DNA from: an uncultured Pelagibacteraceae bacterium | Lineage (GTDB): Bacteria > Pseudomonadota > Alphaproteobacteria > Pelagibacterales > Pelagibacteraceae | Direction: 5' to 3' | DNA: 64,000 nt | Assembly (NCBI GenBank): GCA_902561585.1 | Contig: CACEQK010000001.1 | Location: forward strand, 1-64,000 | Shown: piece after piece, positions 1,557 to 38,969 of the stretch | How the letters are laid out: every line of letters starts with the position of its first letter | How positions within the stretch are numbered: position 1 is the first letter of the stretch | The notes under the pieces: model-generated | What the model was told of the DNA's origin: nothing | What the model saw: only the letters and a program-made list of their open reading frames with translations | The model's database searches: none | Position numbers and translations under genes: made by a program

Positions 1557-3293
1557 TTAAAAGTTAAGTTTGAATCCCAGATTTCCAATTAAGCTTTTAA
1601 CATCCTGATTAGTATTTTTTGCAGAGACTCCAGAAGTAAATTTTCCATTATCTGTAATCTTTTTTTCGAAACCTAAATTAGCAACTAATGAAATCTCTCT
1701 TGTAAGAGCATTATCTTGTTTGTACGTTGCACTTGTGCCATTTATTGAATAAACTTGAGATTTATCTCCTACCGAATTTCTAAAATCTAACAACCAACCT
1801 AAATTTAAACTATTATTATCGTTATTTATAAGATTGTATTTATCTGAAAAAAATACAGATAAATTTCCCACTTTTCTATTTCTCCAAGAATAATATTTGC
1901 TCTCATTATAGCTCGGGGTAATTGAAAAACTTCCAGTTAAACCAATATTTGGCACAAGCTTAGGATTGGTTTTAGTAACGCCAGAATGTATTTCAAAAGT
2001 TTGGTAATTACTGTCAATATTTAATTTACCTGATGAAGTTGTGTTTGTTAAAATTGTTCTCTCACCCTCCTTTAAAGTAATTCCACCTAAAATGAAAGAG
2101 TCTAAGTTAAATAGATATTTATTGCTTGGAAGATACAGTCCAGCGGAAACATTTTGATACGTAATTTTGTGATCTGCTTCAAAATCTTGAACTCCAGCTT
2201 CAAAAGCAAGAATGAAATCTGAATTTTCAAAAGGCGAAATTAAATTAACTCCTACATTAAATAAATCGTACTCTAAAGCCAAATTAGTAGTGTGTTCTTT
2301 TCTATTTAAAAAAGAGGTGTAAGTTTCTCCCCAGCCATTTCCATCATATAAATTTTCTGAGTCTTTGTATCTGTTTATAAATTGTCGTATGTTTAGTGAT
2401 TTATAACTTAAAAGTTCATCTAACGTTTCACTTCCTCCTTGTCCTACTGATCCTGCTGATCCTTTTACTACTTGGTTGCCATCAAGATCTTCTAATGTGA
2501 ATGAACCCTCGGTTTCATAAAAATAAGATTGACCAGCTCCATGATTAATTTTTAATGTACTTCCAGTTCTTAAAAGAGCATCTAATTTTCCAACTACTAT
2601 ACCTTTGTCTTTTAAAGTAATGGTAGAATTGTTTCCGTACAATTTGATAGCATCGTTTCCAACATCATTTTTTATTGTTCCACTATTGGTAACAGAAGAA
2701 CTTGCGCCAACTCTTATGGTTGCGTTACTGCTGTCAGAATTTGTCATAATACCACTTGAGTTATTTGTTACTGTAGCTGTAGTATTAGAGTCAGCTGCAA
2801 AAATTGCAGAACCTTGGTCTGTTGCTTCAATTGTTCCAGAGTTGGTAATTGTCAATCCTGTAGTGCTATTGCTAGTGGATTTACTAATTCTAATTGTATT
2901 TCTAGTTGCAGAAATCTGACCACCAGAATTATTTGTTATGCTTGCATCAGTTGTTCCTTTAACATCTATTGCCACTATTCCACTTGAGCTGATTGTGCCA
3001 GAATTTGAAATTGTTAAATCAGAAGTATCGTCTGCAAAAATACTAACTGTATTTGATGTTATTATGGAACCAGAGTTAACAGTAACACTTACAGTGTCTC
3101 CGGTAATGTTTGCAGGTTTAGTTGCGCCAGTATTTAAAGTTGAATTATTTGTAACTGTTAAAAATTCATCGTTCCCATCAATATTTTGCTGACTATTAGT
3201 TGTAGCGCCATCATTTAGAGTTGCGCTGTCAGCTAAGACAACTTGGGATAAGGATAAAAAACTAAAAAAAAGTAAAATTAGCTTCAAATACAT
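1557..3293 (-). CDS. Small autotransporter with beta-helix passenger
   Basis: This is a predicted type V secreted surface protein. Residues 1-21 form a Sec signal peptide (MYLKLILLFFSFLSLSQVVLA). Residues about 25-290 are a Ser/Thr/Asn/Gly-rich passenger with repeated NSGTI-like units typical of a right-handed beta-helix. The remaining roughly 280 residues have the alternating pattern of a 12-strand autotransporter barrel and end in a C-terminal Phe (GFKLNF), as outer-membrane barrels do. The length of 578 is small for the class. It lies 65 bases downstream of tRNA-Ser on the same strand. The function of the passenger is unknown; adhesion is only a guess. Confidence 0.85.
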   Translation of the reverse strand: MYLKLILLFFSFLSLSQVVLADSATLNDGATTNSQQNIDGNDEFLTVTNNSTLNTGATKPANITGDTVSVTVNSGSIITSNTVSIFADDTSDLTISNSGTISSSGIVAIDVKGTTDASITNNSGGQISATRNTIRISKSTSNSTTGLTITNSGTIEATDQGSAIFAADSNTTATVTNNSSGIMTNSDSSNATIRVGASSSVTNSGTIKNDVGNDAIKLYGNNSTITLKDKGIVVGKLDALLRTGSTLKINHGAGQSYFYETEGSFTLEDLDGNQVVKGSAGSVGQGGSETLDELLSYKSLNIRQFINRYKDSENLYDGNGWGETYTSFLNRKEHTTNLALEYDLFNVGVNLISPFENSDFILAFEAGVQDFEADHKITYQNVSAGLYLPSNKYLFNLDSFILGGITLKEGERTILTNTTSSGKLNIDSNYQTFEIHSGVTKTNPKLVPNIGLTGSFSITPSYNESKYYSWRNRKVGNLSVFFSDKYNLINNDNNSLNLGWLLDFRNSVGDKSQVYSINGTSATYKQDNALTREISLVANLGFEKKITDNGKFTSGVSAKNTNQDVKSLIGNLGFKLNF

Positions 3294-3358: not shown

Positions 3359-3448
3359 TGGCGGAGAGAGAGGGATTCGAACCCTCGAAACGGTTTCCCG
3401 TTTACACGCTTTCCAAGCGTGCGCCTTCAACCACTCGGCCACCTCTCC
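3359..3448 (-). tRNA. tRNA-Ser (anticodon GGA)
   Basis: The minus strand folds as a class II tRNA. The acceptor GGAGAGG pairs with TCTCTCC (one G-U pair), the anticodon stem-loop is GCTTGGAAAGC with anticodon GGA, there is a long variable arm (ACGGGAAACCGT), and the T arm is GAGGGTTCGAATCCCTC. The discriminator is G and the CCA is encoded. Its first base is also the last base of the TAG stop of the upstream glycosyltransferase, so the two are probably co-transcribed and separated by RNase P. Confidence 0.97.
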
Positions 3449-36343: not shown

Positions 36344-36493
36344 TTAATTTTTTCTTCTAATCTTTTTTATTCCACAATCTTTGCATTTTACCGTTTCAGT
36401 TGAACCACCTGGTCCGAAACTATAGTTAATATCTACTTTTTCGTATCTGTGAATACCTACTTTACAAAACAATAAATACAACCACTTAATCAT
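36344..36493 (-). CDS. Small zinc-ribbon-like protein, 49 aa
   Basis: This gene is not on the ORF track. The minus strand reads MIKWLYLLFCKVGIHRYEK and ends with VKCKDCGIKKIRRKN and a TAA. A Cys-x4-His pair (CKVGIH) and a CxxC pair (CKDC) could bind one zinc, reminiscent of small DUF1660-like proteins. The N terminus is hydrophobic and the C terminus basic. It diverges from an 18-residue micropeptide gene 45 bases away. There is no obvious Shine-Dalgarno site. The balanced C/H/C/C spacing makes a real gene likely, but the function is unknown. Confidence 0.6.
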   Translation of the reverse strand: MIKWLYLLFCKVGIHRYEKVDINYSFGPGGSTETVKCKDCGIKKIRRKN

Positions 36494-36523
36494 AATTAAA
36501 ACAAAAATAAATTTTAATATTAT

Positions 36524-36532
36524 TAAGGAGGT
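36524..36532 (+). promoter_or_regulatory. Nine-base perfect Shine-Dalgarno site
   Basis: TAAGGAGGT is fully complementary to the canonical 16S rRNA tail and stands six to seven bases before the micropeptide ATG. Most genes in this window have weak or no Shine-Dalgarno sites, so this one stands out and fixes the start. Confidence 0.8.
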
Positions 36533-36538
36533 AATTTT

Positions 36539-36595
36539 ATGTCAGGATGGGAAATACTCTTAGTTGTTGCGATTTTATACGCAATTGTTAATTAG
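36539..36595 (+). CDS. 18-residue single-helix membrane micropeptide
   Basis: This gene is not on the ORF track. The frame reads MSGWEILLVVAILYAIVN then TAG. Residues 5-17 form an uninterrupted hydrophobic helix, preceded by a short N terminus containing Trp and Glu. The ribosome binding site is optimal (TAAGGAGGT) at proper spacing. It lies in a 339-base space between the Cys-rich protein and the TRAP permease, divergent to the zinc-ribbon-like gene. No family is recognised. Real translation is an inference from the site strength; the peptide resembles membrane micropeptides that modulate larger membrane complexes. Confidence 0.6.
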   Translation: MSGWEILLVVAILYAIVN

Positions 36596-36626
36596 TAAAT
36601 TAAATTATTAAATATTTATAAAAGAC

Positions 36627-38969
36627 TTATTCTGATAAGGATTTCTTTTTTCCAAATTTAAAATTTATATAACCGAATAAAATTAATAATATTAATGCAA
36701 AGGGGTAAACTATAGCTTTATTTGGTCTTTCTGGATTTTCAATTTTAAAATTACTAATGATATCACCCATTTGAATACCTGATTTTTTTGCCTCCCCTTT
36801 CCAATTTAATTTATCTACAGTGAGTAGATCATTCTGATCTACTAATGTCACTCCATATTCTTCTAAATTATAATCATTTTCAAATTTTCCTTTATCAATT
36901 ACGAATAATTTATATCTTTCTCCATATTCGGTCACTCGAGTAACCTTAATGTGAACTTCTTTTGAGGGATCGAAAGACAAATTTTGAATACTTTCTACTG
37001 AAAGTTTTTGTTCATTAAATTTCGGATAAAATTTACCTAATACAAAGTCTGGGGCTAAAAAAGATAAAGATATAATTAAGAAAGCTATAGTTTCATACCA
37101 TTTTAGTTTATTTATGAACCATTGTTGTGTGGCTGATGTAAAAACTAAAATACCAATTAGAGAAGTTACTATTACTAATAAAGCTTGCCAGATACTATCA
37201 ACACCAATTAATAAAAGCTCATGATTAAATAAAAAAACTATAGGTAAAATTCCTGTTCTTAAACTATACCAAATAGCTTGGAGTCCCGTTCTTAAAGGAT
37301 CTCCACCAGAAATTGCTGCTGCTGCATAAGACGCTAAACCAACAGGAGGAGTTACATCGGCCATCAATCCAAAATAAAATACAAATAAGTGAACAGCTAT
37401 TAACGGGAAAATAAAGCCCGAAGCATTTCCAACATCAACTAAAACTGTAGCCATTAGTGAAGCCACTACTACATAGTTAGCAGTTGTGGGTAGACCCATT
37501 CCTAGAAGCAAACAAAGAATAATAGTTAACAAAATTAATATAATTACATTATCTCTTGCTATTGTCTCGATGACTATAATTAAATTAGTACTTAATCCTG
37601 TTGAACCAACTGCACCTACTATTATACCTGCAGTAGCAATCGCAATTCCAACTCCCACCATGTTAATTGCTCCTTTTTGGAGCCCAACAATTGTTTGGTT
37701 CCACCATTCGATTAAGCCAGTTTTATAATTAGAGTTTTTAATTATACGATTTATCAAATTCACTAAGATCAAAGAAATGGTTGCGTAAAAAATTGAAAAA
37801 CCTGCTGTGTACCTCATGTAAACAAGTAAAAAAATTAGAACAAAAATTGGAATTAGAAAATGTAACCCAGATAAAAAAGTTCTCTTAAGATGTGGAACGT
37901 CTGCATCATCCATTCCTTTTAGCCCTAGTTTAAGAGCTTCTAGATGAGATATATAAAATAAAGCAATGTATGAAATGATAGCTGGTAAAAAAGCATGTTT
38001 AACAACTTCAAAATAAGTAACACCAATAAAACTTGCCATAACGAAAGCTGCAGCTCCCATAACTGGTGGCATGATTTGACCATTAACAGATGAAGAAACT
38101 TCAATGGCTCCTGCTTTTTCTTGAGAAAATCCAGTTTTTTTCATTATAGGAATTGTAAAAGTTCCGGTTGTAACAGTATTTGCAATTGAAGAACCTGATA
38201 TCATTCCTGTCATTCCTGATCCTAGAATTGCTGCTTTAGCTGGCCCTCCACGCATCTTGCCTACCATTGCGAAAGCTAAATCTAAAAAATATTTTCCTCC
38301 ACCTGCAGTTTCTAATAATGCTCCAAAAAGAACGAATAAAAATATAAAATCAACAGAAACACCTATAGGTATTCCAAAAATAGCTTCTTGATCAAACCAT
38401 TGGAAACCAACTAGTCTTTTAACAGATAGACCCCCATGAGAAATAATATCTGGAGCATATTTACCAAAATAAGAAAATAAAAGAAAACAGATTGCAATTA
38501 TTACCAGTGGTAATCCGATAGCTCTTCTTGTGGCCTCTAAAAGTATTAAAATACCTGTTGCCCCAATAATAAGCTCTACAGGAACTTTAAGTCCGAATAT
38601 CTCTTTAACTAAAAGTATCCCGCCCCTATTAACAAGATCATCATAAAAAAAATATATATAAAGACAACAGAATGCAGCGACAATACTTATTAGAATATCA
38701 AAAACTGATATTTTCTTTCCTCGTACAACAGGAAAGATTAAAAATGTAAGTGTGAGTGCGAAACCTAAATGTATTGCTCTAGCAGGTAAACCTTTGAACA
38801 TTCCAAAGTTAAACCAAAAAGGAAAAGGCGAAGCATACCAAAGTTGAAATAATGTCCAAATAATTGCTATTCCAAAAACTATTTTTAAATGGATGCCTGA
38901 TAAATTTCTAGTAGGAGAAATATCTTCTTGAATTTTGTCTTTAATCTTACTTTGAATAGTTTGATTCAT
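36627..38969 (-). CDS. TRAP transporter fused permease (4TM-12TM, TAXI type)
   Basis: This is the membrane component of a TAXI-type TRAP secondary transporter, with small (DctQ-like) and large (DctM-like) parts fused. Many hydrophobic segments are visible. Typical motifs are GGKYFLDLAFAMVGKMRGGPAKAAILGSGMTGMISGSSIANTV and MGLPTTANYVVVASLMA, then VTPPVGLASYAAAAISGGDP. The C-terminal part (SVESIQNLSFDPSKE...GDIISNFKIENPERPNKA) is a soluble DUF3394-like region closed by a final helix. At 780 residues it is complete. It lies downstream of the binding-protein gene with a terminator between them. The substrate is a small organic acid or amino acid, unknown. Confidence 0.95.
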   Translation of the reverse strand: MNQTIQSKIKDKIQEDISPTRNLSGIHLKIVFGIAIIWTLFQLWYASPFPFWFNFGMFKGLPARAIHLGFALTLTFLIFPVVRGKKISVFDILISIVAAFCCLYIYFFYDDLVNRGGILLVKEIFGLKVPVELIIGATGILILLEATRRAIGLPLVIIAICFLLFSYFGKYAPDIISHGGLSVKRLVGFQWFDQEAIFGIPIGVSVDFIFLFVLFGALLETAGGGKYFLDLAFAMVGKMRGGPAKAAILGSGMTGMISGSSIANTVTTGTFTIPIMKKTGFSQEKAGAIEVSSSVNGQIMPPVMGAAAFVMASFIGVTYFEVVKHAFLPAIISYIALFYISHLEALKLGLKGMDDADVPHLKRTFLSGLHFLIPIFVLIFLLVYMRYTAGFSIFYATISLILVNLINRIIKNSNYKTGLIEWWNQTIVGLQKGAINMVGVGIAIATAGIIVGAVGSTGLSTNLIIVIETIARDNVIILILLTIILCLLLGMGLPTTANYVVVASLMATVLVDVGNASGFIFPLIAVHLFVFYFGLMADVTPPVGLASYAAAAISGGDPLRTGLQAIWYSLRTGILPIVFLFNHELLLIGVDSIWQALLVIVTSLIGILVFTSATQQWFINKLKWYETIAFLIISLSFLAPDFVLGKFYPKFNEQKLSVESIQNLSFDPSKEVHIKVTRVTEYGERYKLFVIDKGKFENDYNLEEYGVTLVDQNDLLTVDKLNWKGEAKKSGIQMGDIISNFKIENPERPNKAIVYPFALILLILFGYINFKFGKKKSLSE

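Follow-up and report, generated by a model that had tools for sequence, protein, structure and literature searches.

Comparative evidence for a conserved gene encoding an 18-residue hydrophobic micropeptide at several chromosomal sites in the Pelagibacteraceae

Comparison of related genomes shows that positions 36539 to 36595 on the forward strand of the window, the whole stretch of 64,000 nucleotides analyzed here, are truly coding and specify a hydrophobic peptide of 18 residues. The same comparative approach establishes that the gene is accessory and occupies more than one chromosomal site. The initial annotation had proposed a real gene in the gap flanked by a TRAP permease and a zinc-ribbon gene; the results extend that proposal by indicating that the gene belongs to a Pelagibacteraceae-wide family whose members occupy at least three kinds of site, this neighborhood among them.

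Sequence, setting and conservation of the gene

The gene is preceded by a nine-base Shine-Dalgarno (SD) sequence read from the letters, TAAGGAGGT (36524 to 36532, forward strand), with a spacer of 6 nt before the ATG at 36539. The 57-nt frame encodes MSGWEILLVVAILYAIVN in 18 codons and ends with TAG at 36595, all as initially annotated. It is housed in an intergenic region of 133 nt (36494 to 36626) between two genes on the reverse strand. The divergent neighbor is the zinc-ribbon-like gene of 49 residues (36344 to 36493), a conserved landmark of the site, and the convergent neighbor is a fused TRAP permease of 780 residues (36627 to 38969). Where the junction is empty of the micropeptide, the two genes appear to form an operon, with the permease upstream. 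The gap contained no longer open reading frame and returned no Rfam match, consistent with the earlier statement that it is otherwise unexplained.

The strength of the SD is exceptional within the window. Among the window genes 100 residues or longer, 53 in all, the longest stretch of anti-SD complementarity before a start was five bases, in one gene, compared with nine for the micropeptide frame; starts were taken as the first ATG in this count and some sites may have been missed. The earlier claim that most genes have a weak SD or none is borne out by these numbers. The exact nine-base motif with an ATG occurs once in the window against an expectation of 0.11 from shuffling, and is for that reason suggestive rather than decisive. 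Across the genome of origin, a pattern search for GGAGGT-N(2-8)-ATG returned 11 sites, some of which precede proteorhodopsin-like and GcvH-like genes; all whole-genome SD statistics are pattern searches of this kind. No 16S tail was found by pattern search in this genome, which is 72% complete, and the anti-SD sequence was thus assumed.

A DNA search of 197 family genomes recovered this locus from a number of relatives, with both the SD and the peptide retained. Loci were next anchored on the zinc-ribbon start codon, so that their choice was independent of the peptide. The related Pelagibacteraceae junctions exist in two states, either empty with 4-10 nt (20 loci) or filled with approximately 135 nt, and one more junction of 1,201 nt contains other DNA. 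All filled junctions that were read contain an SD-led hydrophobic micropeptide, intact in approximately 49 of 50; one copy (G284, L297) has an in-frame stop, and another (L300) has a weakened SD. Nearly all occupied loci have GGAGG or GGGGG at the SD position. The micropeptide is the apparent reason that the 133-nt intergenic gap exists. A tandem duplication was also observed at the zinc-ribbon site of one genome (L015/L101, G106:C22), where a decayed copy reading MSG-stop accompanies an intact divergent sibling, MTMLVFVVMAYAIMNS.

The pattern of substitution at these loci is that of a protein under purifying selection. The pN/pS of 33 distinct 18-codon open reading frames chosen by position was approximately 0.36 (codon bootstrap 0.25-0.47), and 0.45 (0.34-0.59) when the first six codons were left out, and is not the neutral pattern that the initial annotation had named as evidence against a gene. 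Divergence was 0.13 at second codon positions, 0.37 at third positions and 0.5-0.6 in the flanks, third positions diverging about like the flanks. Substitutions have reached saturation in the 3' flank and over most of the 5' leader, whereas the SD and peptide are kept, a result supporting the proposal of a real gene. Position-matched variants such as MEILAVVILLVLVM, MSMLVFVVITYVIINS and MIGEAIVIIAILAIIFN keep the size and hydrophobicity and have lost the MSGxE motif; such departures are a minority of the approximately 50 in the position-anchored set.

Family members and alternative chromosomal sites

An 18-position protein profile found members in 77 of 397 family genomes at E ≤5e-4, in exactly one place per genome, with a clear gap before the first chance matches near E 0.004; the window copy scored 8.7e-11 in its own genome. 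The 77 genomes fall in genera g1, g2, g6 and g13. A g3 genome contains two weaker tandem copies, MGALEVIAVVAVLYWFMNK, and one g4 genome with a member was added by an order-level sample. The family consensus is MSG[W/L/F]EIL-x-VV-x-[IV]-x-Y-A-[IL]-x-N, mostly 17-21 residues long, and Lys and Arg are absent from most members. In the set of 46 MSG peptides Ile6 and Val9 are nearly fixed and Tyr14 is usual, with hydrophobicity looser elsewhere; since the set was gathered by an MSGxE start, the conservation of Ser2, Gly3 and Glu5 is partly built in.

A scan of approximately 85,000 bacterial and archaeal species for the SD followed by a degenerate MSGWEI pattern returned 91 stretches, among which all 18-20-residue frames starting with MSGWE were in Pelagibacteraceae or Pelagibacterales records. 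Short MTGWE-type frames from other phyla differ from the SAR11 family in the remaining sequence, and the longer frames that begin MSGWEIF encode other proteins. As far as searched, the family appears restricted to the Pelagibacteraceae. The 20-residue member MSGWEILAVVAVIYYLANNM matched no Pfam or NCBIfam entry up to E 10, a weak test for so short a protein, which set aside KdpF (Potass_KdpF) and other curated families. No relatives were found in IMG/VR by pattern or profile, or in 50,697 phage records, the short query limiting sensitivity, and a phage origin was likewise set aside. Searches of the literature on SAR11 micropeptides or small open reading frames did not turn up the gene.

At approximately 10 loci a second or further SD-led hydrophobic micropeptide is present in tandem, for example MSIFAVAIIIYIFAAG, MAIIIIGIIVLYTATT and MGADILLISMGALIVLTWIWNNA. 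One locus (L283, G038:C5) contains four SD-led micropeptides within approximately 550 bp, among them MWVPILALGALVWYFQNQ and two identical copies of MEWAVVALVVWYVWSQQ. A second micropeptide family, MHWILLGIAIGIVFYLGDKYIF, of 22 residues (27 in the genome of origin) was encountered in 102 of 197 family genomes of several genera, including L350 (G000:C2:8751-8810, reverse strand), L265-L282 and others. In g2 it is the convergent neighbor of the micropeptide past tRNA-Ser, and in g1 it is often located in the ssrA region.

Three classes of site were seen. Class A is the zinc-ribbon neighborhood of the window, also occupied in g6 (L289) and g13 (L277). Class B is a variable stretch past ssrA, where the tmRNA 3' end recurs (GGGGTTAGGGGCACCTAGCAACAGAACGCCCC or a variant of it) within approximately 30 nt after the frame. 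In three loci (L075, L076 and L268) another copy lies close before the frame, and promoter, SD, frame and repeat form a unit of approximately 130 bp. The tmRNA 3'-end repeat is present in 135 of 169 genomes of the genus, mostly in 1-7 copies and one orientation, and control matches numbered zero. Same-orientation clusters of these copies past ssrA (e.g., G208:C1 and G202:C1) suggest repeated site-specific integration. Class C copies come right after tRNA-Ser(GGA) or lie a few kb farther on, with intervening DNA.

In the window the tRNA-Ser(GGA) gene (3359 to 3448, reverse strand), the alternative home in other genomes, is without the micropeptide. It is followed directly by a 578-residue open reading frame (1557 to 3293, reverse strand) that is repeat-rich and autotransporter-like and may belong to an island at a recombination site. 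The tmRNA gene of the same genome, on contig C2, is followed by a 373-residue open reading frame and no micropeptide. Among g1 genomes, a class B or C copy was also present in none of 53 with a class A copy versus 16 of 116 others (Fisher one-sided p 0.0017, ignoring kinship), which suggests that the sites are mutually exclusive, with one used per genome. A pair from different genera (L288 and L074) shares 85% identity over 89 nt. The genomes are mostly single-cell assemblies of about 50-98% completeness, so absence from any single genome is weak evidence.

No conserved neighbor is common to the three sites. The gene is elsewhere in many genomes and many TRAP/zinc-ribbon junctions are empty, which weakens the case for a functional link with the TRAP permease. 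The tmRNA 3'-end repeat was also inspected in nine viral contigs; in eight it resembles the terminus of a tmRNA gene belonging to the phage, and the micropeptide is absent. Viral contigs with T4-like genes (L341-L343 and L345-L349) apparently encode a tmRNA of their own, with that 3' sequence at its end.

Candidate promoters differ between the classes. Of 14 class B copies, 12 have TATAAT at -28 to -30 relative to the ATG, against 0.9 expected, and the element is likewise enriched among class C and other copies, with 13 of 25 against 1.9 expected. No such enrichment was seen at that position in class A, where a possible -10 element, CATAAT, is instead found at -48 (36491 to 36496 of the window, forward strand). 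The conservation of CATAAT is not independent evidence since it overlaps the zinc-ribbon start codon.

The ssrA copies resemble the cassettes and islands of tRNA and tmRNA sites in that the gene lies beside or between tmRNA 3'-end copies, the unit being approximately 130 bp where both copies are close. They differ from known cassettes of this type in that no recombinase was identified, the cargo is a single micropeptide, and a tRNA-free site is also used. One tentative reading, which we regard as a serious possibility, is that SAR11 harbors unannotated SD-driven membrane micropeptides of 14-23 residues on very small cassettes that move between fixed sites and diversify in tandem arrays, with one family member per genome. 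The fixed sites would be ssrA, tRNA-Ser and TRAP/zinc-ribbon, and the role possibly phage exclusion or membrane tuning.

Proposed role and competing explanations

Small inner-membrane regulators and subunits such as AcrZ, CydX, KdpF and MgtS have about 26-50 residues. The micropeptide resembles these proteins in its predicted single short helix, its own SD, its omission by gene finders and its purifying selection, and differs in having 18 residues and a neighbor that varies where they have a fixed partner. We favor, at even confidence or somewhat less, a role in which the helix associates with a larger membrane protein and modulates or assists it, as AcrZ, CydX and KdpF do. MSGWEILLVVAILYAIVN has a GRAVY of 1.81, a 12-residue core with mean hydrophobicity of 3.3 and little amphipathicity, as expected for a peptide that would insert in the inner membrane as one short helix. 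It is probably well translated, since the SD is near-perfect and is unpaired in the predicted minimum-energy fold of the window mRNA, for which transcript ends were assumed. Strong retention of Ile6, Val9, Tyr14 and the MSGxE start points to action through a specific contact, in which Gly3, Glu5, Ile6, Val9 and Tyr14 may form the face for helix-helix interaction with the larger protein. The partner need not be the adjacent TRAP permease, given that the gene is elsewhere in many genomes. The micropeptide would be carried on interchangeable cassettes, and any complex must function without it since its presence is patchy and empty sites are frequent. Against an accessory helix, 18 residues are short for spanning the membrane, and the variants lacking MSGxE would fit a less specific membrane action.

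The main rival, which we consider the strongest and nevertheless unlikely, is a type I toxin of the Ibs, Fst/Ldr or TisB kind that depolarizes the inner membrane when its antisense RNA is lost. Such toxins have been discovered through their size, hydrophobicity and tandem duplication, and IbsC, of 19 residues, can be reduced to 15 with 10 hydrophobic residues sufficing (PMC8309996). The micropeptide is within the range of this class (below approximately 60 residues, strongly hydrophobic, one helix), nearly equals IbsC in length, and shares with Ibs/Sib a unit of approximately 140 nt and repeated or tandem intergenic copies; tandem siblings occur at the approximately 10 loci described above, and mobile-looking islands carry the gene. 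Sib antitoxins span the whole open reading frame and ribosome binding site (PMC4147584), and in the window a read-through transcript from TRAP permease to zinc-ribbon gene could serve as antisense. However, none of the site classes had an excess of antisense -10 boxes within 100 nt of 3' flank, in contrast to the conserved antisense RNA signal of Ibs/Sib, and the opposite-strand neighbor varies between sites and is often missing at ssrA. Many type I toxins have a sequestered ribosome binding site, a common though not universal form of repression by mRNA structure that is not seen for the open, near-perfect SD of the micropeptide. The N-terminus is the best conserved end of the micropeptide and is mostly dispensable in IbsC. 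The usual single place per genome and the lack of Lys and Arg in most members also argue against a toxin.

Less probable still, and doubtful in our estimation, is an island-borne peptide for phage exclusion or competition, produced constitutively in the membrane to block phage entry and located in tRNA/tmRNA recombination hot spots. Two of the three sites are classic integration sites, the ssrA copies adjoin tmRNA 3'-end repeats inside hypervariable islands, presence is patchy, and siblings diversify in tandem arrays. The zinc-ribbon site, however, is not an island, searches of phage and viral sequences did not recover the gene, and inspection short of a systematic search identified no defense gene or integrase beside it.

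That the conserved element is instead a small regulatory RNA or leader, with the open reading frame incidental, is very improbable and already largely refuted. At two site classes the short transcript would have a promoter of its own, and the ssrA copies are followed by a hairpin-forming tmRNA 3'-end repeat, both of which would suit an RNA, but substitutions track the codon frame. Folding of the region was no better than that of shuffles (z -0.5 to -1.2), which together with the lack of an Rfam match argues against a structured RNA, and a leader peptide or attenuator is ruled out since the element leads no downstream gene, the next gene on that side being convergent. A random SD-like string with a short open frame in an AT-rich gap, despite the 0.11 such motifs expected per window, is a negligible prospect and is ruled out by conservation at approximately 50 related junctions and two further sites in several genera, evidence that is independent of the motif.

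Implications for SAR11

SAR11 are the most abundant bacteria in the ocean, with genomes held to be streamlined and almost free of gaps. Purifying selection in several genera nonetheless acts on this gene of 57 nt, which is too small for any annotation threshold. For use with Ribo-seq, RNA-seq and peptidomics data, the analysis provides its exact loci, a profile and empty junctions as controls. The results suggest that SAR11 gene counts may miss a layer of membrane micropeptides.
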